A stretch of 64,000 bases of DNA, from the NCBI GenBank assembly GCA_900315255.1, contig OMYH01000012.1, positions 1-64,000 on the forward strand, in the 5' to 3' direction. The DNA is from an uncultured Eubacteriales bacterium. GTDB lineage: Bacteria; Bacillota; Clostridia; Oscillospirales; Acutalibacteraceae. The notes under the pieces are model-generated. The model did no database searches, had not been told where the DNA came from, and was given only the letters and a program-made list of their open reading frames with translations. Made by a program: the position numbers and the translations under genes. Numbering within the stretch: position 1 is the first letter of the stretch; each line of letters begins with the position of its first letter. Positions 1 through 52,872 of the stretch are shown piece by piece.

Positions 1-1426
1 GCTTGTTTGTGAAAACGCAAAAGACGAGGCGGAGTGGCTTGAATGGGCAGTGAAAGCAATGGAAAGCACCTACGGCTATGAGTATCAGGGCGACAATCTG
101 CTGATAGGCCGAATTAATCTTCTCATAACCTTCTGCGATTATATGCAGGAGCATTTGAAAAGGCAGCCCACAAAAAGCGAGCTGTCGAAAATAACAAACA
201 TCATCGCATGGAACATCTGGCAGATGGACGGTTTGAAAGACGCAGTACCGCTCGGTATGCCCGGAGAGGACGATTATGCTTATTCTCTGTTCGGAGAAGA
301 AAGCAATGAAAAGCCGCATGAGGAGGTTGCCTGCAGGATCTGCAACTGGCGGCATAAAAGACCATTGCTGTTCAAGGATATAAAGGAGGGAAAAACGAAA
401 ATGAAGTTTGATTATGTGATTGGTAATCCGCCGTATCAGGAGGAAACCGAGGGAACATCTGACAAGCCGATTTATAATTTTTTTATGGATGCGGCTTTTA
501 CTGTTTCGGATAAGGTGGAGCTTATCACACCGGCAAGATTTTTGTTTAACGCAGGAAAAACGCCGAAAGCGTGGAATGCGGAGCGTTTAAGTGACTCGCA
601 TTTTAAGGTTATGTTTTATGAGCAGGATAGTAGTAAGGTGTTCGGAAATACCGACATCAAGGGTGGTGTTGCGGTGACATACCGTGATACAACGCAGGAT
701 TTTGGAGCGATTGAAATATTTACGCATTTTTCGGAACTTAACTCTTTATTGAAAAAGGTTAAAACGCTCAGTTCAGAATTTCTAAACACGATTATGTATA
801 GCTCGGATGTTTATAAATTTACCGAACAAGTACATAAAGATTGCCCGAATATAAAAGACCTGTTGAGTAAAGGTCATGAAAATGATATAGTAACTAATAT
901 ATTTGATAAACTTGACGATATGGTTTTTTTTGAAACTAAACCAGATGATGACTATGATTATGTAAGAATTTATGGAAGAAAAGGTAATAATCGTGTGTAC
1001 GAATGGGTACGAAGTGATTATATTATTTCTCCCAGCAATTTTAATCATTGGAAAGTTATCCTACCAAAATCTAATGGTAGTGGAGCAATCGGTGAAGTAT
1101 TAAGCACGCCGCTTGTCGGCACGCCGCTTGTCGGTCATACACAAACATTTATTACAGTAGGCTCATTTGATACCGAAGAAGAGGCACAGGCTTGTTTGAA
1201 ATATATCAAAACAAAGTTTGCACGTGCTTGTCTGGGAATACTGAAGATAACACAGCATAATCCGCCCGACAAATGGAAATACGTCCCCCTCCAGGACTTC
1301 ACCGAAAATTCCGACATTGACTGGAGCGTCAGCATTCCCGATATAGACCGTCAGCTTTACAAAAAATACGGCTTGTCGGAGGAAGAGATCGACTTCATCG
1401 AAACTCACGTTAAGGAGATGGTGTAA
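1..1426 (+). CDS. N6-adenine DNA methyltransferase of a restriction-modification system (5' end outside the window)
   Basis: The frame is open from the first bases, so the N-terminus and the SAM-binding motif I lie upstream and the first in-window ATG at 50 is not the start. The catalytic motif IV, NPPY, is at 425-436 in the context DYVIGNPPYQEE, typical of N6-adenine methylases of the Eco57I kind. The roughly 330 residues after it should hold the target-recognition region. It would methylate host DNA to protect it from the nuclease encoded next door. Its TAA stop at 1424-1426 directly abuts the ATG of the next gene, whose ribosome site (AAGGAG, 1412-1417) lies inside this gene, so the two are translationally coupled. 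Family assignment is firm; the exact R-M type is not. Confidence 0.85.
   Translation, partial: LVCENAKDEAEWLEWAVKAMESTYGYEYQGDNLLIGRINLLITFCDYMQEHLKRQPTKSELSKITNIIAWNIWQMDGLKDAVPLGMPGEDDYAYSLFGEESNEKPHEEVACRICNWRHKRPLLFKDIKEGKTKMKFDYVIGNPPYQEETEGTSDKPIYNFFMDAAFTVSDKVELITPARFLFNAGKTPKAWNAERLSDSHFKVMFYEQDSSKVFGNTDIKGGVAVTYRDTTQDFGAIEIFTHFSELNSLLKKVKTLSSEFLNTIMYSSDVYKFTEQVHKDCPNIKDLLSKGHENDIVTNIFDKLDDMVFFETKPDDDYDYVRIYGRKGNNRVYEWVRSDYIISPSNFNHWKVILPKSNGSGAIGEVLSTPLVGTPLVGHTQTFITVGSFDTEEEAQACLKYIKTKFARACLGILKITQHNPPDKWKYVPLQDFTENSDIDWSVSIPDIDRQLYKKYGLSEEEIDFIETHVKEMV
1105..1134 (+). repeat. 15-bp perfect tandem duplication in the methylase gene
   Basis: Two adjacent copies of CACGCCGCTTGTCGG lie at 1105-1119 and 1120-1134. 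The unit is a multiple of three, so the protein reads TPLVGTPLVG and the frame is kept. It falls in the C-terminal, probably target-recognition, part of the methylase. Confidence 0.85.
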
Positions 1427-4400
1427 ATGAGTGTACAGATCAAGACAACAAAACAGGTCGTTCCGAAATGCTATGCCTACACCACGCCTACTGTTGCCGA
1501 CAATGCAGGCTGGATCAAGATAGGCTACACCGAGCAGGACAATGTTGAAACACGGATCAGCCAGCAGCTCAAGACGGCTCACATTCCTCATAAGACGGAG
1601 TGGTCCGACGTTGCCGTTTTTTCCGACGGAGTCACGGGTTTTACCGACAAGGATTTCCATGCCTATCTTGCAAAACACGGCATTGAGAGAATGAAGCCGT
1701 TCCCCGGTGACAAAAAGCCTCCCGAATGGTTCAGAACAGACGGGGATAAGTCATATTCTCTATACTGCAGCTTCCGCAGGGACAAGGGTGTTTTGAACGC
1801 TGTCGGTGTGTCTGTTCCTTATACTCTGAGAGCAGAACAGGAAATGGCTGTTTCGATGACTGCAGATTATTTCAAAAATCACAAGAACGGCGAGTTCTTG
1901 TGGAACGCAAAGCCGCGTTTCGGGAAAACTCTCGCCGCATATGACCTTTGCAAACGAATGGCAAATTCAATTCGTCCCAGAGCTATGAATGTGCTGATCG
2001 TCACAAACCGCCCTGCGATAGCCAATTCGTGGTATTCCGATTATGTGAAGTTCCTGGGCGAGGAGTCGGGATTCTACTTTGTCAGCGAAACCGATTCTCT
2101 GAAATCAAAGCCGTATGTTCATAAAAGATGCGAGATCTATGACAAGCTTCAGGGACAAGACTATTCACAAGCTATGGGCATCATTGAGTTTTTGAGCTTG
2201 CAGGATCTGAAAGGGTCTATCCATTTTGGCGGTGTTTATGTAAAACTGGACGATATTGCAAAACGTGAATGGGACTTCCTTATAATAGACGAAGCTCATG
2301 AAGGCGTTGACACCTATAAGACAGACGTAGCCTTTGAGAAGATCAAACGTCATGCGACTCTGCATTTGTCCGGCACACCGTTCAAGGCGCTTGCAAACGA
2401 CAAGTTCCCGCAGGACGCTATTTTTAACTGGACGTATGCAGACGAGCAGAAGGCTAAGCGTGAGTGGGACGACCCACTGACCGAAAATCCATACGGCACA
2501 TTGCCCAAGCTGAACCTTTTCACCTACAAAATGTCGGATATAGTCCGTGACGAAATATCGCAGGGTATGGATATCAACGGCGAAACGGTAGACTTCGCAT
2601 TTGACCTGAACGAATTTTTCTCGGTAAACGAAAAGGGCGTGTTTAATCACGAAGACAGCGTTGACCGTTTTCTCGACGCCATGACAACTCAGACGAAATT
2701 CCCGTTTTCAACCGAAGAACTTCGTGAGGAACTGCGGCATACATTCTGGCTGCTTAATCGTGTTGACAGCGTAAAAGCGCTTGCAAAGAAGCTTGAAGAT
2801 CACCCTGTTTTCGGACATGGCAATTATAAGATTGTCATCGCTGCAGGTAACGAAAAAGAAAGCGAAGACGCTGTTCGCAAAAAGTCGTTTGACAAGGTTC
2901 GTGATGCAATAGATCAGAACGACAAAACGATAACTCTGTCTGTCGGGCAGCTCACAACGGGTATCACTATTCCGGAATGGACAGCTGTGCTTATGCTAAG
3001 CAATATAAGCTCACCCGCATTGTATATGCAGGCGGCATTCAGAGCGCAGAATCCCCATTTGTTCCGTTACGGCTCGGAGTGCCTGCGAAAAGAGAGAGCC
3101 TATGTGTTCGATTTCGACCCTGCCAGAACGCTCACGATTTACGAGAAATTCGCAAATGATTTATCATTTCATACCACCGGCAGCAAGGGCGACAGCAGCA
3201 AAAGACAGGAGAATATTAAAGAACTGCTCAATTTCTTCCCTGTTATCGGCGAGGACGAGAACGGCGAAATGATCGAGCTTGACGCAGAGCAAGTGTTGGT
3301 TATACCCCGCAGGATATACTCGCAGGAGGTTGTTCGCAGAGGCTTTATGTGTGATTTTCTGTTTCAGAATATATCTAATATATTCCATGCTCCGCAGGAG
3401 GTTCTCGACATAATAAAAAAGCTCACGCCCGCTCAGGCGCCAAAAAACGCAAGTGAACAGATCGACACAAGCGCTGTGAATGTAGATGATAACGGTGAAA
3501 TAGAAATAAGCGACGAATATGTTATAGGCACGGCAAAGGATATTTTCGGGGATAAATACATTACAACAGCTGCGCGTGACGCTGAAAACCTTGTTCGCAT
3601 GATGGAGCATATGGAGAAATCACAGCCCGTAACAAAGGTGACCGAAGGGTTAAAAGACGCTATTAAAAACGGTTTTATTGATAAAATGGTTGATCAGGCG
3701 AAATCTGACCTTGACCCGAAAATGAAGAAGTCCGAAGAAAAGAAAATTAAGAGCGATCTTCAGAAGGAGATTGAAAAAAAGCTTGATCACGAGGCTGCTA
3801 TTGCTGAAATAAAGCAAAAGGAAATAGAGCATGAGCGCAAGCAGGAGATTGCCAACCGCAGCAGCACGGGAAAGACCGCAGAAGAGATTCATGAGAATTA
3901 CGATCAAAAGCAGCGTGAGATGATAGACGAATGGAAAAAAACTGTAGCTGAAACCGTGAACAGCTTTGTGGAAAAAGCTCAGGAAGAAACCGTTAAGGTT
4001 ATTGAAACAAAGAAAGAGGAGCGCAAGAAAGAGTCGATACAGGATCGGATCAGAGATTATTTGCGAGGCTTTTCAAGAACCATACCGTCATTCCTGATGG
4101 CGTACGGTGATGAGAACACGACACTTGCCAATTTTGATACGATCATACCTGCGGAGGTGTTTCTTGCTGTCACGAGCATCACGATAGACGAATTCCGTTT
4201 GCTCAGAGATGGTGCGGACTATATTGATGAAAACGGAAAACATCAGCATTACGGTAATCACTTCGATCCGGTTGTGTTCAACGATTCTGTTCGCGAATTT
4301 ATGAACAAAAAGACGGCACTTGCAAATTACTTTGACGAAACGCAAAGTGAGGACATTTTTGACTACATACCCCCTCAGAAGACAAATCAGATATTCACAC

Positions 4401-5898: not shown

Positions 5899-6327
5899 AT
5901 GAATACCTGGTATACATTTTTCCTCACATTTGCAATAATAGCATTATTGTTGGTAGGCTCTGTTATATCTGTTATTATATTTATTATCAAACTTCACAAG
6001 AAAAAGCAGGCAAGATCAGCTCTTGTTTCCTTTATGATAAATGCAGCACTGATAATATATATCGTTGTATTTTTATTTTCACACAAGCATTATTACAAAT
6101 ATAACGATTGGTTCATAATGGGTAACGATATAGACACAGTAGTGCAGAAATACGGCGATTTTGATGTAGGCAGTATTCATCAAGGACGAAAGGGCAAAGT
6201 GGGATATTATATCTATACAGATAACGGACCGATCATGCCCGACCATTTGCCGCATTACTATTACATACACTACGATGAAAACGGCATTGTCTATCAGGTT
6301 GAGGAAGGCTGTGCACCCGGAGGCTGA
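5899..6327 (+). CDS. Small membrane protein of unknown function
   Basis: 142 residues with two predicted membrane helices near residues 7-32 and 43-63, joined by a short basic loop (KLHKKKQAR), then an extracytoplasmic or cytoplasmic domain of about 80 residues rich in Tyr, Asp and Gly (VVQKYGDFDVG, HYYYIHYDENG). ATG 5899 follows GGGAG at 5887-5891. A TATAAT hexamer at 5851-5856 could be its -10 box, but I see no good -35. I do not recognise the family. A strong ribosome site at its 3' end couples it to the tiny ORF that follows. Confidence 0.6.
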   Translation: MNTWYTFFLTFAIIALLLVGSVISVIIFIIKLHKKKQARSALVSFMINAALIIYIVVFLFSHKHYYKYNDWFIMGNDIDTVVQKYGDFDVGSIHQGRKGKVGYYIYTDNGPIMPDHLPHYYYIHYDENGIVYQVEEGCAPGG

Positions 6328-6431: not shown

Positions 6432-6965
6432 ATTTCAACAGTAAACGAACAGGATTTCTTGAATTTAGAAAACAACATTCTGAAAGAAGAGATCAAGAAA
6501 ATATTGAAGCTTCGTGATGAAGCTGAAGCAGAGAATAACTACAGCTATTCTTTTGCCCCACCGATAGACGAAGAAAAAATGACATCATGGGAGAAAGAAA
6601 CAGGCATTACCATACCGGAGTCTTATAAAGAGTGGCTGCGTTTTTCGGGAGAAAGTACGATAAACGGTACAACTGCAAGCTTTTTTAGTCCTGAAAAATT
6701 CCATTCGGATTATGTTCCAGATGACCTTGTTGTTATTGGATCGGTGATAGGAGACGGTGAAGATGTTTGTTTTTCAAAGGAAACCGGACATTTTATAAGG
6801 TTTTTTGAAGGAAAACGACGTAGAGAATGTGAGGATTTTAAAGGCGTTCTTAACGACATTATAGAATTATTAGAACCGCAACCCCTAACTCCCGAAGAAA
6901 TTGAACAAATGCGTAAAAAATTAGAGGAGATACGGGAGAGAAGAAAAAAGGAGATTAAAATATGA
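6432..6965 (+). CDS. SUKH (SMI1/KNR4) family protein, probable toxin-immunity type
   Basis: The core matches the SMI1/KNR4 fold: an N-terminal helix, then WEKETGITIPESYKEWLRF near residue 55, the GDGEDVCFSKETG strand region, and a charged C-terminal helix. In bacteria such proteins are mostly immunity proteins against polymorphic toxins. Start choice is unusual. AGGAAG at 6420-6425 is spaced six bases from an ATT codon at 6432 that gives an ordinary N-terminus (ISTVNEQDFL), whereas the next start codon in frame, TTG 6459, has no ribosome site. I take ATT 6432 as a rare start or a mutated ATG. The stop overlaps the next ATG (ATGA, 6962-6965). No toxin gene is adjacent. Confidence 0.68.
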   Translation: MSTVNEQDFLNLENNILKEEIKKILKLRDEAEAENNYSYSFAPPIDEEKMTSWEKETGITIPESYKEWLRFSGESTINGTTASFFSPEKFHSDYVPDDLVVIGSVIGDGEDVCFSKETGHFIRFFEGKRRRECEDFKGVLNDIIELLEPQPLTPEEIEQMRKKLEEIRERRKKEIKI

Positions 6966-7471
6966 CAATTCAAAACGCCCCCAACAACAAGGTTATCCTT
7001 GCACCAACATCACATCTTGTAGTGGACGAGTTTGACGGAGTGACCATCTCGTTCAAACTCAATGACAGTTTTGTTCATGTGGAATCTCACGCAATGGAAG
7101 TACCGATAGTAGAGGTCTATGCACCCGGCTGTGACCCGGAATATGATGATATTGACGAAGCGACCTTTCCCAGCGTTTGTCTGCTCTGTGACGATGTGGC
7201 TTATGAAGCCTGCGAGAGCTTTAAAGAAACAGGGATTATTCCCGATGCGATAGAGTGCCAATCACTCAAAGGTGGTTTCAAATTCCGTGCAAAGCTGCCG
7301 TATGATAACGGACTGCTGATCTATATGTACGGCTTCGATATGGCTGACGGCGCGTGGGAGAATACCGCGCTGTGTGTGATCTATCCCAAGGAATACGAGG
7401 ACAACGATGATGAAAAACGCCTTATAACTGTGCTCGATGAAGCGGCGAGAAGTTACAAGGAGAACGTGTAG
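6962..7471 (+). CDS. Conserved hypothetical protein, 169 residues
   Basis: ATG 6962 overlaps the stop of the SUKH gene, so the two are coupled. The protein is acidic and mostly beta-strand by eye, with motifs VYAPGCDPEYDDIDEATFP and MYGFDMADGAW, no signal peptide and no membrane segment. I do not recognise it. Its place directly behind a SUKH gene suggests a second immunity-type protein, but that is context only. Confidence 0.6.
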   Translation: MTIQNAPNNKVILAPTSHLVVDEFDGVTISFKLNDSFVHVESHAMEVPIVEVYAPGCDPEYDDIDEATFPSVCLLCDDVAYEACESFKETGIIPDAIECQSLKGGFKFRAKLPYDNGLLIYMYGFDMADGAWENTALCVIYPKEYEDNDDEKRLITVLDEAARSYKENV

Positions 7472-7487
7472 TGCGGGAGTATCCAAA

Positions 7488-7973
7488 ATGTCAGATAAAA
7501 TAAAGGAATACATACTTGAAGGTAATTATCAGTTAGCAGAAAGTGTTTGTAATAAAATGAATTCGTCTGATGTATATAACACTCTTCTTACCTTAGCTTA
7601 TGATACTGAAAGCATATGTATATATAGTTTTATACAATATATGATTTCAAGAGCAAACGAGGTTTTATGGATCAAATTGGCGATAGAGGTAATGATAATT
7701 CCGCTATGTCATATTGAAGGAGCATATTCCGCTGCACTGTTTCATGCAAGAGAGCTGCTAAAGCTTGAATATAATGCAGCAAATTTAGAAATGGTACTTT
7801 TCTTTTACGATATTCCCGACAAGCTGATCAAAAAAAGCGAGGCTGAATCATTAGCAACGGAACTTCAGAAAATAGATCCTGATAATAAAGTGGCGTTACA
7901 TATATTAAGTGGTTGTTCATGGACGCAATTGAATACAAACGGTAAAGATTCTCAGACTGACTTAAAAGGATAG
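7488..7973 (+). CDS. Alpha-helical hypothetical protein (TPR-like), 161 residues
   Basis: The start ATG 7488 follows GGGAG at 7475-7479; an in-frame upstream ATG at 7437 lies inside the previous gene and is rejected. The protein is almost entirely helical with repeated short helices (YQLAESVCNKM, LFHARELLKLEYNAANLEMVLFF, ESLATELQKIDPDNKVALHIL), resembling degenerate tetratricopeptide repeats. No enzyme motif is visible. It sits in the run of small accessory genes after the SUKH protein and may share that role. Confidence 0.55.
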   Translation: MSDKIKEYILEGNYQLAESVCNKMNSSDVYNTLLTLAYDTESICIYSFIQYMISRANEVLWIKLAIEVMIIPLCHIEGAYSAALFHARELLKLEYNAANLEMVLFFYDIPDKLIKKSEAESLATELQKIDPDNKVALHILSGCSWTQLNTNGKDSQTDLKG

Positions 7974-12396: not shown

Positions 12397-13365
12397 TTGC
12401 CAAATCCCATTGAGCAAACAATTAAAACGATCATTGATGATTTTTGCTTGAAGCCCGTTGCTATCCGCAATTCACAGTATGGCAATGAAATTAATTACAA
12501 AATCTGCTCGGATAAATGCAGGGGAGAATGCCGGATCTTTAAATCAAACGATCACTTGTGCCTTATATTGCTGAATGTAGAAATAATAACGGATATTGAG
12601 ATCAATTTTAATAACGTTAATTGCGTTTATCTGAGCTATTACCGTGATTTGTCCGCCGAATATCGTATTGGAGAAAACTCTGTCAGGCTGATGAATGGCA
12701 TGATGTATACAAACTCAGGTACGATAAATAGGGGCTGTACAGTCTTTTTTGCAGACAGTCAGGCAGACGGGATGATCCTTCTTATCGATCAGGATAAATG
12801 GTTGGAGCAGATCTGGTCAAATAGCGAGAGTAATATTATTAAATTTTCGGAGATCAACGGGTTGTTTATGCTGCCGACTATTGAGCCGATTATAGTTCAG
12901 ATCGAGAGATGTCCGATACGCGACAATGATGAATTATCACATATTTTTTATAACGGTAAAATTCATGAAATAATGTCTATATTAACTGACGCTGTTTTAA
13001 AAAAGAAACAATCTTCTGCTGACTATGCTTCAATAGATAGGGATGACGTTTCGTTTATTATATCTGTAGCCGAATATATACAGAATAATTTAGATCAGGA
13101 AATCGATGTGGTCATGCTGACAAATATGGCAAAAATGAGCAGAGCAAAACTGTATTACTCGTTTAAGTATATGATCGGAATGACTATGTTTGAGTACAGG
13201 AATGCCCTTCGAGGAAGAAAAGCAAAAAATTTATTGACAAAAACCGATATACCCATTAATGAAATTGCAGAAAACATAGGTTTTAGTTCTGCAAGTACTT
13301 TTTCAAGATTCTTTAAGGATATGTACGGAATTACTCCTTACAAGTACAGAAAAATGGATCTGTAA
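12397..13365 (+). CDS. AraC family transcriptional regulator, probable pilus regulator
   Basis: 322 residues from TTG 12397, set by GAAGGTG at 12385-12391. Residues about 1-200 form an AraC-type sensor domain of beta character with a Cys cluster near the N-terminus (CSDKCRGECRIF). The last 100 residues hold two helix-turn-helix motifs: MLTNMAKMSRAKLYYSFKYM and IPINEIAENIGFSSASTF, followed by SRFFKDMYGITPYKYRK, the AraC signature. It is encoded directly upstream of and in line with the pilus genes. In streptococcal FCT pilus regions an AraC-type protein (MsmR) sits in the same position and controls pilus genes, so a like role is inferred. A shared element around both promoters supports autoregulation plus pilus control. 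Confidence 0.85.
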   Translation: MPNPIEQTIKTIIDDFCLKPVAIRNSQYGNEINYKICSDKCRGECRIFKSNDHLCLILLNVEIITDIEINFNNVNCVYLSYYRDLSAEYRIGENSVRLMNGMMYTNSGTINRGCTVFFADSQADGMILLIDQDKWLEQIWSNSESNIIKFSEINGLFMLPTIEPIIVQIERCPIRDNDELSHIFYNGKIHEIMSILTDAVLKKKQSSADYASIDRDDVSFIISVAEYIQNNLDQEIDVVMLTNMAKMSRAKLYYSFKYMIGMTMFEYRNALRGRKAKNLLTKTDIPINEIAENIGFSSASTFSRFFKDMYGITPYKYRKMDL

Positions 13366-13777: not shown

Positions 13778-13805
13778 ATTGTATGTAAAGGAGGAAATCA
13801 AACAA

Positions 13806-16800
13806 GTGACCAAGAGAATAATATCAATGCTTCTTATTACCGTTATGATGTTCACGATTATCCCTTCATCCGCATTTGCTGTGACCGAGAGTCAGATAGC
13901 AGAGGACGGAGAGTATACGAGCGCATATTTATACGGCTATAAGAAAGGCGAATTAAAATACCGTGCCGATCTTACAGTAGGTGTAGAAAACGGACTTATC
14001 AGTACATTGAGTATAAGCAACTGTACAAGCGATAAACTATACAAAGCATTTACACCGCAGCTTATCTCTGCTTATACAGATATACCCGCAAGTGTATCTT
14101 ATGTTGAGGCAGTAGAGGCGGACAGTGGCTCGGGTTTTGATGCAGTTTCAAGTGCGAGTGTAAAATCCTCTTACTCAAAGAGTGCAAAGTATTCCGTTAA
14201 TCTAAAAGAAGCTATCATTGATGCCTTGAGCAACGCTCCTGTTAAGGAAACTTCGTTGAGCGGCGAAATATACAGCGGTTCGGCAAAGGTAAACAATTAC
14301 GACCTTACAATGAATGTAACCGTTTTAAACGATACAATTGTTGATATAGAGGCGGATAAGGATAAATCTACGGGCTCTTGGGAAACGCTCGTGACTAATC
14401 TTAAGTCAAGCTATGTCGGCAAGAATACGGACAGTATCGATGCGGTAACGGGCGCAACACCTTACACGACAGCCGTAAACACAGCAGTCCTTGACGCACT
14501 TTCATCTGCAAACGCCTCGGCACAGCCCAAAATCCTGGAAGGCGAAAATCAGACATGGACTAAAGGCAGCGGCAAGAAGCTTAGATTCAAATCAAGTTCC
14601 GAGTTTATAAATTTCTTAAAGCTTTTGATTGACAGCAGAGAGGTATCAAATGCTTACTACACGACAAAGAGTGGTTCAACAATAGTAGAAGTTGATTCTT
14701 CTTTCCTTGAAACCCTGGCGGCAGGCGAGCATACGGTATCAATAGTATCAACAGATGGTACGGCAAGCACTAAGTTTACTGTAAAAAGCTCAGGAAGTTC
14801 AAGCGAAAGTATTTCAGACGGCACGTACACCGATGAAGGGGCTGTAAAAGGTTACTATAATAACTCAACGATTCCGGCCACAGTTTCTATTACTGTTTCA
14901 AACGGTCAGTTTGGCAATATAACAGCAAGCACAACGGCAACGTTCAACAAAGACCAATGGACTCTTGAGGATACCATTAAGATTTTTGCTGACGCTCTTA
15001 CAAACCGTGAAGCCACAGTTGCTGCAATAAGCAGCGTAACATTCTCTTCTTCGAGCAGCTGGGCTGATGAGCAAACCTTCAGTGATTTAAAACAATTGCT
15101 TCTGTCAGCCGTAGGCGGTACTTCGGAAGATGGCGATACAATTAAAACATACACCGGAAACGGCTCTTCTTATGACATTACCATCGAGGTTGGAGAAACG
15201 ATCAGACTGATAAGCAGTTACAGCAATTCTTCCTATCGTCAGTGGACAACAAGCGAATGGGATGGTGATGAGCAGCTTTATACAGATGATCAGAATGAAT
15301 CCGGAAACACTATCGAAGTCGTTGGTAAAGCCGAGGGACTTCAGACGTATAAATATTATGGTCAGTGGTTATCAACAAACGATGAGGTATTTAATATAAC
15401 CGTTGTTTCTTCATCAACTCCGGAAGAACCCGAAGAAGACGAAGAAGATCTTCCCGTACCCGATCATGTAAAATCTATATCAGGTTCAGGCGACGATTAC
15501 ACCATAAGTTTGAATGTAACAGGTAAAGATGTAACGTCTTCATCAACAACCACAACTCAGGGCAGTACTGTAAATAAGGGTACAAATCTTGTTATGGTAA
15601 TTGATATATCGGGGTCTATTGTGGGCAAGGAATCGGCTTTGAACAGTGCTATCAGATCACTTGTAAATGGATTGCCCGACAGCTCTCAGGTAGGTGTAGT
15701 TACATTCAACGAAAGTGCGGCTATGAGCAAGGTTTACAGCAAAAATACGATTTCGGGACTTAATTTCAGCGGTGTTGAGGATTCAGGTACAAATATGGCG
15801 ACAGGCATTTCTGCGGCTGCAACGCTTTTGAATGGTTCGGGCTGGACTAACAGCGATAATAACAAAGCTATGGTTATCATTTCCGACTTCGATATCGCAG
15901 ATTATGCCAATTCGATAAACGGTGCAAAAACAGCTAAGAATGCTAAAACCACCATATATTCGGTTAAAATTGACAGCAATACTGTTGGTGAAGCTTCCCT
16001 AACAGAATTATCGAGCGATAATAAGAATGCAAGCATACCGTCTGTTACAAGATATATTTCAAGCGAGTATCCAAATGCAAGTGCCGTAAATAATTCGATG
16101 CTTGGTATGTTCAATCAAGCAACGGTTACGACAGGAACGAAAGACAGCGATAAAACCTATGTTTACGGTGCGGGCGGCGGAAACTGGAGTGAGATATTTG
16201 CAGAGATTCAGGAAACTCAGCAGATAACCACTGTAACAGAGACTACCGTTCACACAAATAAGGTCATAATTGAGGATGTTCTTTCCGATTATGTAGACTT
16301 TTCAGGAACAGGTACAAATTTCGGAATTACCGTTGACGGCTTGACCTCTTCTCAGTACACTGTTGAGGTATCCGGTCAAAAGGCAACAGTAACCTTTTCT
16401 CCCACATTTGAGCTTAATGCTGATTCGGTTTATACGGTAAAAATACCCGTAAAGCCCACAGAAGCAGCACAGGCAGCGGCACATGCAGCAGCAAGCAACA
16501 GTGTGGAATTACCGACCAACAACGGTGCATCACTTTCTTATGCATACGGTGATAACGATGTAAAAACAGTACCATACGCAGAAACGCCGGTTATCACTGT
16601 ATCAAAGGAATTCACTCACACGCTCTCGTATGACGCAAACGGCGGTGATAACGCACCTGCCGAGCAAACAGTGACAAACAAAGCAAATTCGGTAGAATTT
16701 CATGTTAGCACTGCTGCTCCGACAAAAGAAAACTGCGACTTTATAGGCTGGGCTGAAAGCGAAAACGGAGAAGTAAAGTATTATGCGAATGATCCTGTTA

Positions 16801-17927
16801 CTGTCAGCTTGTCAAAGACGCTTTATGCAGTCTGGCAGACAAAAACAGCTGTTGTTACATGGAAAAATGATGATGGTACAGTTCTTGAAACTGATGAAAA
16901 TGTGTTGTACGGCACAATGCCCGAGTACAACGGCGAAACACCGACAAAGGCGGCTACAGCAGAAAAGACATACACCTTCGCAGGCTGGGATAAGGAGATT
17001 GCAGCAGTAACAGGCGATGTGACTTATACTGCAACTTTTACAGACGATACAAATACATATACAGTAAAGTTTGTAAACGAGGACGGAACAGAGCTGCAGA
17101 GCGAGGTTCTTGCTTACGGCACAATGCCCGAGTATAAGGGCGAAACACCGATAAAGGCGGCTACAGCAGAAAAGACATACACCTTCGCAGGCTGGGATAA
17201 GGAGATCGCAGCAGTAACAGGCGATGTGACTTATACTGCAACGTTTACAGACGATACAAATACATATACAGTAAAGTTTGTAAATGAGGACGGAACAGAG
17301 CTGCAGAGCGAGGTTCTTGCTTACGGCACAATGCCAGAGTATAAGGGCGAAACACCGATAAAGGCAGATGACGAGATTTACAGCTATACATTTACTGAAT
17401 GGGATAAAGAACTAACAGCAGTAACGGAAAACATTACCTATACAGCTGTTTATACGCAGAATCAGACTGCTTTCCGGGTTTTCATAGATGATTACTCAAA
17501 AGGAAAGGCTGATATAGACGGCGTTGTTTCGGGTAATTATTACAGAGGAGAGGTAAAGTTTACCGTATCCGCTGATCAAGCGATAGCATTTGGCATAGAT
17601 AATAAAGATAATACTTACACCCGTATGTACTGCGAGGAAAAGGATAACCGTTCTTATGAGTTCTTTGTAAATGTGACTGATCATGATGTATATCTTGTAG
17701 ATGGATTCAAGGGTGATGCCGATCTGAACGGTAAGGTTCAGCTCAGAGACGCATCAAAGATAGCTAATCATATGATCGATGTAAATGCTATTAATGATCC
17801 TCTGAATCTTTTTATCGGTGACGCAGATGCAAACGGAAAAATTCAGCTGAAAGATTCCTCAAGAATAGCTAACTATATGGTTGATATGGCTTCTATTAAT
17901 TGGGATTTGAACACGAGTGATCAATAA
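13806..17927 (+). CDS. Giant pilus-tip-like surface protein: FMN-binding, vWA, Listeria-Bacteroides repeats, C-terminal dockerin
   Basis: 1373 residues. The start is GTG 13806, because AAAGGAGG (13788-13795) rules out the upstream in-frame codons; it gives a clean signal peptide ending SSAFA. Residues about 30-245 hold two FMN-binding-like domains; the second has DAVTGAT near 211, the pattern to which ApbE attaches FMN, and the first has DAVSSAS. A third, degenerate unit lies near 340-440. A von Willebrand A domain begins near 594 with the MIDAS motif DISGS, then SGTNM and ISDFD. Listeria-Bacteroides repeats fill about 937-1225. Residues about 1302-1367 form a type I dockerin (GDADLNGKVQLRD, GDADANGKIQLKD). 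There is no LPXTG-type signal or C-terminal membrane helix. It is first in the pilus operon; vWA tips are usual in Gram-positive pili, a dockerin is not. Confidence 0.82.
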   Translation: MTKRIISMLLITVMMFTIIPSSAFAVTESQIAEDGEYTSAYLYGYKKGELKYRADLTVGVENGLISTLSISNCTSDKLYKAFTPQLISAYTDIPASVSYVEAVEADSGSGFDAVSSASVKSSYSKSAKYSVNLKEAIIDALSNAPVKETSLSGEIYSGSAKVNNYDLTMNVTVLNDTIVDIEADKDKSTGSWETLVTNLKSSYVGKNTDSIDAVTGATPYTTAVNTAVLDALSSANASAQPKILEGENQTWTKGSGKKLRFKSSSEFINFLKLLIDSREVSNAYYTTKSGSTIVEVDSSFLETLAAGEHTVSIVSTDGTASTKFTVKSSGSSSESISDGTYTDEGAVKGYYNNSTIPATVSITVSNGQFGNITASTTATFNKDQWTLEDTIKIFADALTNREATVAAISSVTFSSSSSWADEQTFSDLKQLLLSAVGGTSEDGDTIKTYTGNGSSYDITIEVGETIRLISSYSNSSYRQWTTSEWDGDEQLYTDDQNESGNTIEVVGKAEGLQTYKYYGQWLSTNDEVFNITVVSSSTPEEPEEDEEDLPVPDHVKSISGSGDDYTISLNVTGKDVTSSSTTTTQGSTVNKGTNLVMVIDISGSIVGKESALNSAIRSLVNGLPDSSQVGVVTFNESAAMSKVYSKNTISGLNFSGVEDSGTNMATGISAAATLLNGSGWTNSDNNKAMVIISDFDIADYANSINGAKTAKNAKTTIYSVKIDSNTVGEASLTELSSDNKNASIPSVTRYISSEYPNASAVNNSMLGMFNQATVTTGTKDSDKTYVYGAGGGNWSEIFAEIQETQQITTVTETTVHTNKVIIEDVLSDYVDFSGTGTNFGITVDGLTSSQYTVEVSGQKATVTFSPTFELNADSVYTVKIPVKPTEAAQAAAHAAASNSVELPTNNGASLSYAYGDNDVKTVPYAETPVITVSKEFTHTLSYDANGGDNAPAEQTVTNKANSVEFHVSTAAPTKENCDFIGWAESENGEVKYYANDPVTVSLSKTLYAVWQTKTAVVTWKNDDGTVLETDENVLYGTMPEYNGETPTKAATAEKTYTFAGWDKEIAAVTGDVTYTATFTDDTNTYTVKFVNEDGTELQSEVLAYGTMPEYKGETPIKAATAEKTYTFAGWDKEIAAVTGDVTYTATFTDDTNTYTVKFVNEDGTELQSEVLAYGTMPEYKGETPIKADDEIYSYTFTEWDKELTAVTENITYTAVYTQNQTAFRVFIDDYSKGKADIDGVVSGNYYRGEVKFTVSADQAIAFGIDNKDNTYTRMYCEEKDNRSYEFFVNVTDHDVYLVDGFKGDADLNGKVQLRDASKIANHMIDVNAINDPLNLFIGDADANGKIQLKDSSRIANYMVDMASINWDLNTSDQ
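16846..17465 (+). repeat. Three tandem coding repeats of 207 bp
   Basis: The landmark GGCACAATGCC recurs at 16911, 17118 and (with one change) 17325, giving a 207-bp, 69-residue period. Each unit encodes a Listeria-Bacteroides repeat (YTFAGWDKEIAAVTGDVTYT). The stretches from unit 1 into unit 2 and unit 2 into unit 3 are nearly identical in DNA; the third unit diverges. Confidence 0.85.
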
Positions 17928-17983
17928 ATCATGTATCCGAGTTTTAAATCGACGAATTTCGGATTATTGATATTACAGAGTCA

Positions 17984-18021
17984 GGGCAATACCGTAAGGC
18001 ATTATTTTTACGGTGTTGCCC
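17984..18021 (+). promoter_or_regulatory. Perfect intergenic hairpin between tip and backbone pilin genes
   Basis: GGGCAATACCGTAA (17984-17997) pairs with TTACGGTGTTGCCC (18008-18021), with one mismatch and a ten-base loop. No T-run follows; the pilin ribosome site comes next. It is probably an mRNA processing or stability element rather than a terminator. Confidence 0.6.
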
Positions 18022-18039
18022 GTAGAAAAGGAGAAAAAT

Positions 18040-19701
18040 ATGAAAAAGATTATATCGGTTTTTTTAGCATTACTAATGCTGATGGGATTAACGAGCGCTT
18101 TTTTGGCAATATCGGCTTCTGCAGATTCCGAAGCGACTACAACGGTAACTCCCGACAATGAGGAGATCGTATTTAATGTAAGCAGAAATGGGAACGTTCT
18201 TACCGTAAATTTTGATGCTGCAAAAGATTTTTCTATCGACGGACTGCTGTTGCAGCAATCTTATGCTGACAATATTACGTTTAACGCAGCGAACGCAGAT
18301 GAATTGAAGGACTCTGCTTTCCCGGTACAGGTATTTAATCCTTCCAACAACAAATTAGCATTTACGGGCAATGTTTCAGTAAATCAAGGGGAAACGCTTC
18401 TGTCGTTTGATTACACTATAAGTGACGGATTTAAGGAAGAAACAGACTATACTATCAGTTATGCCATTGGTGAGGCTTATTCCGATCTGTATGACATTGT
18501 TTATGATGATCTTGAAGGTAAGAATTTCACAGTAACATATCGTGAAGACCCCGTAACGGTTTATCATAACGTTACATTCGTAAACAACGGTACACAATAC
18601 GGCGATGTTATTACGGTTGAAGACGGCAAAGCAACAGCTGCACCCGAAACAGATCCTACAAAGGAAAATGCAGCATTCAAGCACTGGTCACTTACTAACG
18701 GCGGTACAGCTTATGATTTTGCAGCTCCGGTCACAGATGATATTACTTTGTATGCCGTGTATGACGCTGAGACAGTAAACGGCAGCAATACTGTTGATCT
18801 GTCTAAGGTTGAGATCAAAAAGACATTAAATAAAGACGCTAACGTTTCTATTGATGAGACTTTTACCTTTAAGCTTGAATATGTAAGCATGAAGCCCGCC
18901 GCATCGTCGGGTCAGGTCGCAGATGAATCAGCTATCCCGAACAATATCACAGCAGTGATCAACAACTCTGGCTCCGTTAAGCTTACAAGCGCAGAGTTCC
19001 CGATCGGCGGCGTTTATACTTATAAGGTTACAGAGGTACAGGGATCAACACCCGGTATGACATATGATACAACAGAGTATACTCTTGATCTTGAAATTGA
19101 GGAGAACAATAACGGCAATCTTGAGCTTGACACTGTAGTTGTAAAGAAGAACGGCGAGAAAGCTTCACTTGATTTCACAAACAGCTATGCGCCTACAACA
19201 ACTTTGAAAGTTAGCAAAAAGGTTACCGGAGAAGGAAATAATCCTCTCAGAAACAATAAGAAGTTTAACTTTTCAATCACGTTTACAGAGTCGTCTGTTT
19301 CAAATGAGCAGAAGGTTAGAGTAAACGGAACAGAGCTTGTTTACGGTACAGCATTTGAATTTACGCTGGGTGACGGCGAAGAACTTGAATTTACAAATAT
19401 CCCCGAAGGCACTAAATACACGATCATCGAGAAAGGCGAGGAGTATTACACACCGTCTGCAGAGATCATTTCCGGGGATACCGGAGATAAAAAGAACGGC
19501 ACATATGCTTCCGATCTTACTGTGTCTGATGTAACAATCGTCAAGGGTACAAACGAAGCAAAAATTACAAATACATACAGTATCACACCTCCGACAGGAT
19601 TATTCTTTAACAATGACATGTTTGTGATTCTTGCAGTTGCAATGCTTGCTCTGACAGGTACATTTATTGTAAATCGTAAGCTTAGCAAAGCAAGAAGGTA
19701 A
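18040..19701 (+). CDS. Backbone (major) pilin with N-terminal cohesin-like domain and PPTG sorting signal
   Basis: 553 residues from ATG 18040 (AAGGAG at 18028-18033; the upstream ATG at 18013 lies in the hairpin). It has a signal peptide ending near SASA. Residues about 30-175 are beta-rich with a pattern seen in cohesins (NVLTVNFDAAKD, then GETLLSFDYTISDGFKEET and FTVTYRE). A Listeria-Bacteroides-like repeat spans about 180-240. About 252-385 resembles the FctA/Spy0128 isopeptide pilin domain (VEIKKTLNKDANVSIDETFT, with YTYKVTE and TNSY), and about 386-510 is a Cna-B-type domain (TLKVSKKVTG, YTIIEKGE, ITNTY). The end is PPTGLF, a membrane helix and the basic tail NRKLSKARR, a sortase signal. 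It should be polymerised by the class B sortase downstream. The cohesin reading is by pattern only. Confidence 0.82.
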   Translation: MKKIISVFLALLMLMGLTSAFLAISASADSEATTTVTPDNEEIVFNVSRNGNVLTVNFDAAKDFSIDGLLLQQSYADNITFNAANADELKDSAFPVQVFNPSNNKLAFTGNVSVNQGETLLSFDYTISDGFKEETDYTISYAIGEAYSDLYDIVYDDLEGKNFTVTYREDPVTVYHNVTFVNNGTQYGDVITVEDGKATAAPETDPTKENAAFKHWSLTNGGTAYDFAAPVTDDITLYAVYDAETVNGSNTVDLSKVEIKKTLNKDANVSIDETFTFKLEYVSMKPAASSGQVADESAIPNNITAVINNSGSVKLTSAEFPIGGVYTYKVTEVQGSTPGMTYDTTEYTLDLEIEENNNGNLELDTVVVKKNGEKASLDFTNSYAPTTTLKVSKKVTGEGNNPLRNNKKFNFSITFTESSVSNEQKVRVNGTELVYGTAFEFTLGDGEELEFTNIPEGTKYTIIEKGEEYYTPSAEIISGDTGDKKNGTYASDLTVSDVTIVKGTNEAKITNTYSITPPTGLFFNNDMFVILAVAMLALTGTFIVNRKLSKARR

Positions 19702-19726
19702 AAATAATGAATCGGAAGGGGACATA

Positions 19727-20347
19727 ATGATGAAGAAAACGCTGTTTGCTATATATACAGCTGTGTTCTTTATGATGTCTGTGATAACTAATGCAAGTGC
19801 CGATCAGATCAGACTGCCTGTTTCACAGGTCGTATCTTGCGAAGGTCAAGAAACCGATTCCGAACCCTTTGTAGGTAACTATACTTTAACAGCAGTAGAT
19901 AAAGATGCGCCTATGCCTGAAGGTACTGTGAACGGAAAGTATGAGTTCAGCATTGCAGGCAGTTCGACTTATATTTTACCTGAGATCAAAACAAACAACC
20001 AAGGTCAATGGGAATATACCATCACCGGAAATAATCTTACTTCAAAACCTAATGATAACGTGATCTGTCTTACGCTTTATGCTGTTGATCAAGGCGGAGA
20101 TACGGAGCTTGTTTCTGTTGCGCGAAATTCTGATGGCAAAAAAAGCAATCTGATTTTTAATGTCTCGGTGATAAATGAAAAGCCGCAGAGCAGTTCGAAA
20201 AGCTCTGAAGTATATTCGTCAAAAATAACATCATCGGGAATCATATATTCACTGAAGACCGGGTATATCTCAAACATCATTGCTTATGTAATTGTTTTGG
20301 TATTGAGTGCGGCTGTGTTTGTTTTATTGAAGCATAGAACTGATTAA
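19727..20347 (+). CDS. Minor pilin / pilus anchor subunit (FctB-like position)
   Basis: 206 residues with a signal peptide (MMKKTLFAIYTAVFFMMSVI, ending near NASA), one beta domain of about 120 residues (FVGNYTLTAVDKDAPMPEGT, YILPEIKTNNQGQWEYTI), a Ser-rich stalk, then a C-terminal membrane helix and the tail KHRTD. A pentapeptide SLKTG sits at the place of a sorting signal, just before the helix, although it is not canonical LPXTG. The domain order and operon position match the minor pilins that anchor FCT-type pili to the wall. GGAAGGGG at 19714-19721 sets ATG 19727. Confidence 0.7.
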   Translation: MMKKTLFAIYTAVFFMMSVITNASADQIRLPVSQVVSCEGQETDSEPFVGNYTLTAVDKDAPMPEGTVNGKYEFSIAGSSTYILPEIKTNNQGQWEYTITGNNLTSKPNDNVICLTLYAVDQGGDTELVSVARNSDGKKSNLIFNVSVINEKPQSSSKSSEVYSSKITSSGIIYSLKTGYISNIIAYVIVLVLSAAVFVLLKHRTD

Positions 20348-20351
20348 AATA

Positions 20352-20383
20352 AAGCAGAGTATCTATATTCAGGTACTCTGCTT
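20352..20383 (+). promoter_or_regulatory. Intergenic hairpin between minor pilin and sortase genes
   Basis: AAGCAGAGTA (20352-20361) pairs perfectly with TACTCTGCTT (20374-20383). No T-run follows. It may set the ratio of structural to enzyme mRNA. Confidence 0.6.
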
Positions 20384-20406
20384 GATGTTGATTTCAGAGG
20401 ATTAAA

Positions 20407-21294
20407 ATGAATATAAAAAAATATATCGGATATCTATTAATTTTCACAGAAAAAATAATGAGTATATTTGTAATCTCGTTTCTTCTGTTAATAATAATAC
20501 TTTCAATGTTTGTCCTTATGGACAATAAAAAAATAATAACAGAAGCCGAAAGCTCCAATTATAAGGCGTATAAACCTGTGAAGGATGATATAATTTCGTT
20601 TAACGAATTAAAAAACAGAAATCATGATGTTTTAGGATGGATAACAATAGATAATACATCTATAGATTATCCCATCGTGCAGGGAGAAACCAATGAAACA
20701 TATATAAATAAATCTATATACGGAGATTTTAGTCTTACAGGAGCAATTTTTTTGGATTCTCGGAATACAGCCGATCCGGAAACAAATATTGTTTCTATTA
20801 TATACGGACACAACATGGTTGGAGATGCGATGTTTGGCGGAATAGATCTCTTCGAAAATAGCGACTATTTTAACGATCACCTTACCGGCACTCTGTTTAT
20901 AGATGATAAATACTATAAGCTCAATATTTTTTCTTTCTTCAAGGCGAACGGATATAACAGCTATGTTTATAATACTTCGATAAATAAAGATGATTACAAT
21001 GAATGGGTGAATGCAATTATTGCAATGTCTGTTAATAGGACAAATAATATTCCGCATGGAGAACCTGTGCTGCTGTTGAGCACGTGTTCTAAGGATGAAA
21101 CAGACGGACGCTGTGTGCTTGCAGCAACGATCACTGAAGGAGAAGCCCCTTTGAGAGAAAAAGAAGATGAGAAAAAGACAGATCTTACGGTGCATCTTAT
21201 GAATTATAACTTAGACAATATACCTTTTAAATATATTATCGTTTACTGTTGCTTTTTGATCATTATAACTTTAGCGTTCATAAAAAAGAGGTAG
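20407..21294 (+). CDS. Class B sortase, probable pilus polymerase
   Basis: 295 residues with an N-terminal membrane helix (about 15-38) and a second hydrophobic segment at the C-terminus. The sortase core has the catalytic His in IYGHNM near 134, Cys in LLSTCSKDE near 226 and Arg in DGRCVL near 235. The N-terminal NRNHDVLGWITIDNTSIDYP and YIYG-type NKSIYGDFSLTGAIFLDSRN segments are class B features. In FCT-type pilus regions a class B sortase (SrtC2 type) links backbone pilins by isopeptide bonds, and here it follows the pilin genes directly. It should recognise the PPTG signal of the backbone protein. Confidence 0.9.
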   Translation: MNIKKYIGYLLIFTEKIMSIFVISFLLLIIILSMFVLMDNKKIITEAESSNYKAYKPVKDDIISFNELKNRNHDVLGWITIDNTSIDYPIVQGETNETYINKSIYGDFSLTGAIFLDSRNTADPETNIVSIIYGHNMVGDAMFGGIDLFENSDYFNDHLTGTLFIDDKYYKLNIFSFFKANGYNSYVYNTSINKDDYNEWVNAIIAMSVNRTNNIPHGEPVLLLSTCSKDETDGRCVLAATITEGEAPLREKEDEKKTDLTVHLMNYNLDNIPFKYIIVYCCFLIIITLAFIKKR

Positions 21295-21297
21295 TGC

Positions 21298-21885
21298 ATG
21301 AAGAAACAAGAAAACACAGCAAAAACTGAAGTATCTTCCGATATGGAATTAAAAGATGGAAATGAAACCGGTAATAAAAAAACAGGCGACCGAACTTTAC
21401 TCTGCGATCTGATAGCATTTGTATTAAAGATAGGTTGGATCGTATTAGTTTTTTTACTGGTTTTAAAATTCATTGTCGGAATTACAATTAATCATGGGGA
21501 GAGAATGACTCCTGCTTTTTCAGATTCCGATCTGATAGTATACTACAGGTTAGCAGCTGATTTTCAAACAGGAGATTGTGTTGTATACGCAGGCGAAGGC
21601 AATACCCTGCTGATCGGAAGAGTAATAGCCAAAGAGGGGGATACGGTCGATATTACGTCAGACGGGCTGATGGTAAATGGCTATTACACAACAGAGAAGT
21701 ATGCGAATGGTGATATTGTTTTGTTTGAAGGAGGAGCCGAATTTCCGATGACGCTGTCATACGGAGAGTATTTTGTGCTCGCCGATAATCGCTCTGAGGG
21801 TTCGGACAGCAGAAATTACGGGGCTTTATCGAACGGTATTATTAAAGGACGGGTTTTGCTTTCGTTAAGATGGAGAAATTTTTAG
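21298..21885 (+). CDS. Signal-peptidase-I-like pilus assembly protein lacking the Ser/Lys dyad (SipA type)
   Basis: 195 residues: a charged cytoplasmic N-terminus, one membrane helix (about 43-62) and a signal peptidase I fold (MTPAFSDSDLIVYYRL, RVIAKEGDTVDI, YFVLADNRSEGSDSR and YG). The catalytic Ser that should precede MxP is an Arg (GERMTP, near 67), and the Lys that should precede RVI is a Gly (IGRVI, near 107). Streptococcal SipA of FCT pilus regions likewise lacks the dyad, with Asp and Gly at these places, and acts as an assembly chaperone rather than a protease. That role is inferred here from the matching loss and operon position, three bases after the sortase. Confidence 0.85.
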   Translation: MKKQENTAKTEVSSDMELKDGNETGNKKTGDRTLLCDLIAFVLKIGWIVLVFLLVLKFIVGITINHGERMTPAFSDSDLIVYYRLAADFQTGDCVVYAGEGNTLLIGRVIAKEGDTVDITSDGLMVNGYYTTEKYANGDIVLFEGGAEFPMTLSYGEYFVLADNRSEGSDSRNYGALSNGIIKGRVLLSLRWRNF

Positions 21886-22051: not shown

Positions 22052-22104
22052 GAAATAATAATATGTGCTATATTGCCATACATCTTTTCAGATAAATCAA
22101 ATTG

Positions 22105-22132
22105 ATCGCCTTGAGAGTTCAAGGCGATTTTT
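22105..22132 (+). terminator. Rho-independent terminator after the pilus operon
   Basis: ATCGCCTTGA (22105-22114) pairs perfectly with TCAAGGCGAT (22119-22128), loop of four, then a T-run. Being symmetrical it may also end the minus-strand ECF operon. Confidence 0.85.
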
Positions 22133-50500: not shown

Positions 50501-52872
50501 CGGTACAGTATATCGCTCTGGAAGCATTTGCTCAGAACCCTGTATCAAGTCTGATATTTGAAACGGAAGAGGACGGTACAAGTGAACTCAAAGCTATCGA
50601 GAGCTCGGCCTTCAGCATCGGTTTTATTTCCAATAATCAATATCCCGATGGAGTAATTCCCATCGGTCAGACGATGATGGTTCGTGACGTAACGATCACA
50701 GTTCCTGCCTGCAGAATCGACGGCTATGCATTCTCGGGTATGATCATGGGACGTGATATGTATTTAGGCAGATTGGGATACAATTTACCCACCTCACTGC
50801 GTATCGTTGTTACCCCGAACGGTGACAGACAGCTTGATTTAGGAAAGACAGATATTGCAGCTTATAATGTAGTTTCTATGCCTGACGGTGTATTTGATGA
50901 AAATGATCTGTATACAGGCTTTGAAACAATGGATCTTCCCACAAAATCTTCCCTTGGTATGAGTCAGCAGAGTAATAATATGTACATGGGCAACGATGAT
51001 TCATTATCAATACAAAGTGCTCAGCTCTTTGTTGAGGATAACGTTCCCATAGCCGATCTCGGCGCATATGCAGAGGGTGAGAACGTCTGGGATATTTATA
51101 CTTATGATTCTGATAATGAAGATAATGATGGTAACGATGATCCCGTAACAGTTGAAGATACTCTGATAAGGTATGGAATGCAGCTCAGAGCTATTTCGTC
51201 CGTTCTCGGTACATCGGGCAGATATGCGATATTCTCTGAAAGACTCGATCCGCTTTACACGATCTGCGTAGACGAAGAGAATATCGGCACTGGCTTCACC
51301 GACAGCGAGAAAGCACAACTCAAGCCTGTATCGGCTTCAACTAATGCATTTGATTTCACCAATTTCGATCCCTCCGATATGTTTACGATGAACCCGTTCA
51401 CAAAGAACTCGATACTCAACATCTTCGGAATAGATTACACGATAGTTCGCAATTATAACGTACTTATCGATCCCGGCAAGGTTAATACTTATCTTGTTGC
51501 AGCTATGAGAAATACTCTCAGCGATCCTGCCGACGCAGCGAATAATATGTTCGGCAATATGCAGATGTTCCCGTTCATGACGGCCGGTACAGAACAGCCC
51601 GAGCCGACAGAAGATGTGATCAATCCGCTTACAAAGGATGGATTCGTAAGATTCACAGAGGGTATGCCTTATGTAATTCTCTCAACGTGTTCGCTTGACT
51701 ACGTGGGAACAAAGTAAACAACAGACACACCCGACAGAGCTGACAGAACAGACGACAGCGATCCGTTCTTTAACTTCAGCGAGATCACAGCAGAACAGCT
51801 TGAAACGATCAAGACAGAATACCCGAACCTCTACGATTACATCACAGAGAACATGGCTAACGGCTATGAGTATGTATATGCAGCAGGCTGTAAGGAAGAT
51901 ATCCTTGCAAAGGATAATTATCACATTATTCAGCACATTCCGAACTATGAGTATTTCGTGAATGAGAGTGATCCGAGTCAGCTTCTTGTCGATGATCTTG
52001 ACGACATCAACCCGCCGTACTTATACGCAGAGCTCAAGGTTGACGAAGTATATTATGTAGGCGACGAGATGCCGAATGAAAAGAACGTAGAGTTCAAGGA
52101 TACTCCCGATACTCCCGACGTGACCGTGAAGATCACCAAGGAGAGTGAGGACGTTCCGGAAGTTACAGAAGAAGGCACATACACAGCAGAGGCAACGATC
52201 GTTGTTGACGGCGAAGAGTATGTACTCGTTAAGGACTTCATGGTCAAAGAGAAGCCTGTAGAATCTGATAGCGATAATACAGACAGTGACGAAAGCCCCG
52301 ATCAACCGCCTGTTGATTCCGAAAACACAGATAACACAGATAATTCCGATAACTCGGATAATACCGATAATACCGATAACTCCGACAACACGGACAACAC
52401 CGATAATTCGGACAATACCGATAACTCCGACAACACGGACAACACCGATAATTCGGACAATACCGATAACTCCGACAACACGGATAACACCGACAATTCG
52501 GACAACACGGATAACACCGATAGTTCGGACAACTCCGACAATACGGATAATTCTGATAATTCGGATAACACCGATAGTTCGGACAACTCCGACAATACGG
52601 ATTCCGACGAAAGTCCTGATCAGCCGAAGGATCCCGAGGGCAATAATCCGTACCTGATGGGTGACGTTGACTTTGACGGAAAGATCACCGCAAAGGATAG
52701 CTTGCTCATAATGAGAAAGGTTATCAATCTGTACAAGTTTGATGAAATTCAGGAGCTTGTTGCCGATGTAAACAATGACGGCAGGATCTCCAACGCTGAC
52801 GCAATGGTAATTTTGAGATATACGATCAAATTACCTGCAAACGGAAGCGTAGGCAAGACAGTTTATCTGTAA
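47512..52872 (+). pseudogene. Giant leucine-rich-repeat dockerin protein interrupted by one in-frame TAA
   Basis: From ATG 47512 (AAAGGAAG at 47497-47504) 1401 codons lead to TAA at 51715-51717. The same frame then runs on without a break to 52872, giving 1787 codons in all. A signal peptide (ending near AAQAEE) is followed by a region with CxxC pairs (KCTICGRYF, FCKDCGGYQ), a GLUG-like part (KTFDGCGHTISGLYVEV), BspA-type leucine-rich repeats near 850-1050 (SITFPSTLEEIGDGAFYG, TELTIPKSVQYIALEAF) and an Asp/Asn/Thr/Ser stalk. The end is a type I dockerin (GDVDFDGKITAKDSLLIMRK and ADVNNDGRISNADAMVILRY). The sense codon at the stop was probably CAA. As it stands the product lacks the dockerin. 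Confidence 0.82.
52326..52610 (+). repeat. Low-complexity coding repeat (TDNSDN-type stalk)
   Basis: About 95 residues made only of Thr, Asp, Asn and Ser in a three-residue rhythm (SDN, TDN). Longer blocks such as GATAACTCCGACAACACGGA recur at 24-66 base intervals. It is a flexible spacer before the dockerin. Confidence 0.9.

Follow-up and report, generated by a model that had tools for sequence, protein, structure and literature searches.

Pili built by sortases are regarded as covalent fibers throughout, and cellulosomes as non-covalent assemblies. Among sortase pili, the FCT-2/3/4 pilus of Streptococcus pyogenes (Cpa, FctA/Spy0128, SrtC, SipA/LepA, FctB) has a two-domain FctA backbone, and Cpa carries its own sorting motif by which it is covalently joined to FctA. 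On the cellulosome side, ScaE of Ruminococcus flavefaciens is a sortase-anchored cohesin, a single anchored protein for scaffoldins. Here we describe a six-gene operon in a 64,000-nucleotide stretch of DNA (the window; contig OMYH01000012.1, C79 in our numbering) from an uncultured Eubacteriales bacterium. It is a real FctA/class B sortase/SipA-type pilus operon, and we think it moderately probable, from comparison of its proteins with their relatives, that covalent sortase coupling of the adhesin has been replaced in it by a dedicated cohesin-dockerin pair.

All six genes lie on the + strand, and sequence and domain matches bear out the predicted order of AraC-family regulator, vWA tip protein, FctA-type backbone pilin, minor pilin, class B sortase, and a SipA-like protein lacking the catalytic dyad. 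The operon shares with the S. pyogenes pilus the two-domain FctA backbone with its lysine and isopeptide asparagine, a PPTG-type sorting motif, a class B sortase, a dyad-less SipA, and a minor pilin (PMC7900414, PMC4049620). The match to the streptococcal FCT pilus in the original prediction holds for the gene set but not for the place of the SipA-like gene, which comes last here and lies ahead of the backbone gene in related loci. Two further differences set the window operon apart from its streptococcal counterpart: its adhesin ends in a dockerin in place of a sorting motif, and its backbone has two additional N-terminal domains, a domain that we call D0 and a Listeria-type repeat. In contrast to ScaE, D0 belongs to a pilin predicted to polymerize, and an adhesin is the cargo that we propose for it. 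The host genome (2.69 Mb, 99.85% complete) is that of a cellulosome-producing Ruminococcus; it has 71 Dockerin_1 matches and four cohesin matches in a Pfam scan, and cohesins are present in 22 of 22 genomes of the genus; cohesin-dockerin chemistry is therefore native to this organism. In the literature searched, with most subscription papers outside its scope, we found no description of a link between sortase pili and cohesin-dockerin assembly.

The adhesin gene (13779..17927, +) encodes a large surface protein of 1382 amino acids, delimited from sequence, domain scans, and orthologues in two other species. One orthologue belongs to L001, a copy of the operon in RUG10651, an uncultured Ruminococcus metagenome-assembled genome that is the nearest named relative of the window genome; the other belongs to L185, in a genome of a different family (G600) that holds the whole operon (adhesin, D0-bearing pilin, minor pilin, sortase, and SipA-like protein). 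The layout is signal peptide, FMN_bind-like repeats, vWA domain, DUF7604, Listeria-type (InlB) repeats, beta module, and dockerin, and the L185 adhesin likewise has FMN_bind-like, vWA, repeat, and dockerin parts. The vWA domain (15585..16010, +) scores weakly in the window (E = 0.14) and clearly in L185 (PF00092, E = 1.4e-8). Inspection and alignment of the C-termini found no sorting signal in any of the three species, which bears out the original prediction for the window and extends it to both orthologues. One FMN_bind-like repeat (14301-14501) falls just under the cut-off (E = 5e-4); its sequence DAVTGATPYTT resembles flavinylation sites and reads DATSSATKYSA in the L185 orthologue.

The dockerin occupies the extreme C-terminal part of the adhesin (17706..17894, +), directly after a beta module (17436..17705, +) that is conserved in the alignment of the three species. 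Two calcium loops of the DxDxNGxxxxxD type, about 35 residues apart, are present in all three species (in the window GDADLNGKVQLRD at 17712-17750 and GDADANGKIQLKD at 17817-17855). The domain was not picked up by the Pfam genome scan: its PF00404 score of 16.6 bits is below the gathering cut-off of 22.9, and the alignment spans the full model. A hidden Markov model trained on about 40 of the window genome's other dockerins, however, scores the three tip dockerins at 35.8, 40.5, and 34.6 bits (E = 1e-12 for the window in a three-sequence search), and the 35.8 bits of the window domain rule out a chance match. When the three-species profile was compared with the Protein Data Bank (PDB), the best matches were mostly solved dockerins (E = 5e-5 and weaker), including those of R. 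bromii, Acetivibrio, and R. flavefaciens. By these comparisons the adhesin ends in a genuine but divergent dockerin, as had been predicted from its two type I calcium loops.

As in type I cellulosomal dockerins, two EF-hand-type loops are present and the putative recognition helices are repeated inside the domain. The residues at positions 10, 11, 17, and 18, which have been used as dockerin recognition residues (PMC4081043), read LRAN/LKAN in the window and LRAD/LRAD and LRNK/LRNK in the two orthologues, so that the two halves are near-identical within each species and differ between species. LRAN/LKAN was found in none of the roughly 40 other dockerins of the window genome that we examined, where AKQR/NKLR prevails; in this respect, and in its score under the Pfam cut-off, the tip dockerin departs from the cellulosomal type.

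The proposed partner of this dockerin is D0 (18124..18552, +), the N-terminal domain of the backbone pilin. Among 394 genomes searched within the order, the L185 genome yielded a full-length D0 (E = 5e-15); weak matches in other genomes of the family were judged to be noise, and matches to the signal peptides of unrelated proteins were discarded. We compared a D0 profile built from the three species (window, L001, and L185) with a profile of 68 cohesin domains using hhalign. D0 aligns collinearly with the cohesins (positions 23-122 on 24-126, 96 columns) with a score of 31.2, a probability of 64%, and P = 6.6e-5; when the alignment was taken from whole pilins instead, the score rose to 34.8, with a probability of 80% and P = 1.4e-5. 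Against subsets of the cohesins, D0 scored 25.8 to 34.9, and true divergent single cohesins scored 24.8 to 57.1 against a cohesin profile restricted to the genus. Controls remained lower than the two full-profile scores: the maximum was 22.7 in 400 column shuffles and 25.9 in 300 block permutations, the reversed profile gave 16.5, other domains of the same proteins reached at most 17.2, and 210 natural triplets drawn from other beta-domain families (FctA, SpaA, pilin-D1, DUF7601, and Listeria repeat) reached at most 26.8. In the opposite direction, D0 scored no more than 18.0 against profiles of those families. The profile homology thus exceeds all nulls, is moderate rather than overwhelming, and leads us to regard D0 as very probably a divergent cohesin relative; the cohesin-like character claimed for the pilin N-terminal domain emerges from profile comparison once the distant L185 orthologue is included. 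According to a published survey (PMC11557425), InterProScan often misses the cohesins of Ruminococcus because their sequences have diverged too far.

The backbone pilin (18013..19701, +; FctA, E = 5e-18; DUF7601, E = 1.5e-13) probably starts at ATG 18040, which is preceded by an AAGGAG site, rather than at GTG 18013. D0 is joined to the shaft domains by a Listeria-type (InlB) repeat (18565..18762, +; Flg_new, E = 2e-11, with a match to an Internalin B repeat in the PDB), followed by FctA (18811..19191, +), DUF7601, a CnaB-like C-terminal shaft domain identified by domain match (19201..19527, +), and the sorting motif ITPPTG (19582..19599, +), which is identical in the three species. The pilin core matches both domains of Spy0128 (PDB 3b2m, E = 3e-18). 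With K161 and N168 placed in the 3b2m chain from their known motif, K383 of the pilin (19159-19161) aligns with the polymerizing K161 and N390 with the isopeptide residue N168; both are invariant in the three species. Judged by this alignment, the shaft is made up of FctA, DUF7601, and ITPPTG, and D0 together with the Listeria-type repeat is an additional N-terminal arm. Spy0128 subunits are linked through K161 and T311 (PMC7900414). Because the K161 equivalent lies C-terminal to D0, the domain layout and this linkage suggest that the arm bearing D0 should project from the fiber at every subunit.

The two domains also travel together. All three D0 operons, in species of two families, have a dockerin adhesin without a sorting signal. 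Related gut Firmicutes carry ordinary FctA/SrtB/SipA pili with homologous backbone, sortase, and SipA genes; unlike the window operon, however, their backbones have no D0 and their tip-like proteins carry sorting signals. These are six loci of the family (L225, L226, L227, L230, L231, and L235), and their large tip-like proteins end in VTPTG, PVTG, PLTG, PVPTG, PETG, or TVPTG motifs. This split of 3/3 versus 0/6 has a chance of 1 in 84 if the loci are independent, which they are only partly. D0 and the dockerin diverge faster than their neighbors: across the three species pairs, D0 identity is 46, 33, and 30% compared with 87, 61, and 61% for the shaft, and dockerin identity is 62, 44, and 36% compared with 79, 58, and 63% for the adjoining beta module. 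The hosts of the D0 operons are rich in dockerins, with 71, 52, and 85 matches, compared with 0 to 3 in the eight genomes with related pili, except for one with 40 (G013).

We favor pairing of D0 with the tip dockerin because the two co-occur, the sorting signal is lost exactly where they do, both diverge quickly, the recognition residues are distinct, and the hosts are dockerin rich; the system likely works as a cohesin-dockerin-coupled pilus. The original proposal of cohesin-dockerin placement gains from the co-occurrence, the exchange of sorting signal for dockerin, the co-divergence, and the recognition residues, all of which are drawn from sequence comparison. In the mechanism we envisage, the sortase would use K383 and ITPPTG to polymerize backbone subunits of the FctA type, and every subunit would keep D0 and the Listeria-type repeat as its N-terminal arm; D0 would act as a divergent cohesin, its detailed fold presumed; and the secreted vWA adhesin, having no sorting signal, would dock onto it by the C-terminal dockerin. 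Because D0 is on every subunit, outside the shaft, the adhesin would probably decorate the fiber along its length, which refines its predicted position at the fiber tip. Taken to its full extent, this makes the shaft a covalent, open-ended scaffoldin with one cohesin per subunit, displaying the dockerin adhesin along the whole fiber through a dedicated cellulosome-derived pair in place of the sortase signal, a picture that we put forward tentatively and hold at slightly short of an even chance.

Several observations weigh against coupling of this kind. None of the three D0 sequences has a PF00963 match, so D0 is not to be classed as a Pfam cohesin; Pfam and NCBIfam searches of D0 alone gave no useful match, and an hmmsearch comparison of D0 with the PDB returned none either, the best being antibodies by chance. 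A D0 profile of only two sequences gave no signal against the cohesins in hhalign (0.7%) because it held too little sequence diversity. Two AlphaFold models, each from two sequences (window D0 first or L001 D0 first), had low predicted local distance difference test (pLDDT) scores of 57.8 and 64.4, too poor to confirm or refute a cohesin fold; the second has nine strands and a predicted template modeling score of 0.64. Foldseek with these low-confidence models placed no cohesin among the 50 matches listed for each, and conservation on one predicted sheet of D0 versus the other was too small a comparison to carry meaning. Surface exposure alone could explain the fast divergence of D0 and the dockerin. 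The three D0 operons are a small sample: a further one was absent from 299 genomes of the second family, and the viral contigs and plasmids searched held no relatives of the operon. In L001 the adhesin frame shifts within the repeats, the minor pilin survives as a remnant that stops early, and the SipA-like frame contains a stop codon (interrupted frames at 3-4165, 5956-6130, and 6958-7838), either from decay or from draft-assembly error. Finally, G013 retains an ordinary pilus with its 40 dockerins, and the swap is therefore not an automatic outcome of having many dockerins.

The adhesin dockerin might instead bind an ordinary scaffoldin or a surface-anchored single cohesin elsewhere, with D0 unrelated and the adhesin a cellulosome component that happens to share the pilus operon. 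The genome does encode several further cohesins, two of them in single-cohesin proteins that have a hydrophobic anchor at the C-terminus, and InlB-repeat proteins other than the adhesin have ordinary dockerins (open reading frames C54, 1327 amino acids, and C64, 1171 amino acids). Yet the recognition residues of the tip dockerin match none of those examined in the rest of the genome, D0 and the dockerin stand together in every D0 operon of both families, and the dockerin takes the place that the sorting signal has in related loci; we consider docking on such a scaffold unlikely, and D0 and the tip dockerin probably pair with each other.

D0 could also be a general cohesin, making the pilus a covalent, open-ended scaffoldin onto which numerous dockerin-bearing proteins would be loaded, among them both enzymes and the adhesin. 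Its presence on each backbone subunit, outside the covalent shaft, would suit that role, as would the 52 to 85 dockerins of the three host genomes, but at its recognition positions the dockerin of the operon departs from those of the enzymes, and the D0 sequence is distant from other cohesins, so that general loading seems to us quite improbable. The explanation to which we give the least credence takes D0 for an Ig-like or carbohydrate-binding domain outside the cohesins, serving as a spacer or second adhesin, with a profile match that reflects a general likeness among beta-sandwiches. The missing Pfam match and the best Foldseek matches of the weak models, which are other beta-sandwiches, speak for it; against it, the other beta-sandwich families compared reach no more than 26.8 with the cohesin profile, where D0 reaches 31 to 35 and is collinear over most of the domain, and D0 itself scores at most 18 with their profiles.

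The remaining genes of the operon fit the pilus assignment. The AraC-family regulator (12397..13365, +) matches HTH_18 (E = 6e-22) and HTH_AraC (E = 9e-10). The minor, probably basal, pilin (19727..20347, +) has an SLKTG-like motif (SPKTG in the L185 orthologue), a hydrophobic stretch, and a charged tail. The class B sortase (20407..21294, +) is the predicted pilus polymerase, matching TIGR03064 at 161 bits, above the NCBIfam cut-off, with a catalytic LLSTC and a downstream arginine. The SipA-like signal-peptidase homologue (21298..21885, +; Peptidase_S26, PF10502, E = 2.6e-17) has no Ser/Lys dyad, with arginine (GERMTP) and glycine (IGRVIA) at the catalytic positions and GEGMSP/LGRVIA in L185; streptococcal SipA likewise has no signal-peptidase dyad (PMC4049620). 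A terminator-like inverted repeat was recognized from sequence at the end of the operon (22104..22129, no strand assigned), and a second terminator-like hairpin separates the minor pilin gene from the sortase gene (20352-20383).

Between the adhesin and pilin genes is a 16-bp RNA hairpin (17984..18021, +) of -25 kcal/mol and a z-score of -5.8, without a U-run. Hairpins occupy the same intergenic place in L001 (4166-4240, z = -4.8) and L185 (9935-10008 on the - strand, z = -5.2), so that place and stability are kept in three operons whose hairpin sequences are unrelated. A plausible role is processing or stabilizing the pilin message, such that the backbone would exceed the adhesin.

Other dockerins and cohesins were noted in passing. 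An ordinary dockerin lies within a 384-amino-acid open frame elsewhere in the window (52660-52821), and a 1152-amino-acid open frame in another genome (G305:C59:7036-10251) has about ten dockerin matches in series. A SpaA/GramPos_pilinD1-type pilus locus in the genus was set aside, as its tips retain sorting signals. Two other genus genomes encode a protein with a weak C-terminal dockerin-like domain (L181, 1049-2473; L178, 1093-2493; E = 4e-7 to 9e-6) immediately ahead of the gene for a large SpaA-type pilus protein that itself carries a sorting signal, and in another genus genome a putative single-cohesin lipoprotein adjoins SpaA-type pilus genes (L179, 2614-3447).

The operon appears to join pili and cellulosomes, in that a plug-and-socket contact, reversible and dependent on calcium, would stand in for one covalent coupling step; D0 and the dockerin also look like an orthogonal pair from which decorated protein fibers could be built. 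If this is true, adhesins could be exchanged or released with no need to rebuild the fiber, cohesin-dockerin chemistry would serve attachment besides enzyme assembly, and gut fiber degraders would bear a surface organelle that standard domain searches have overlooked.
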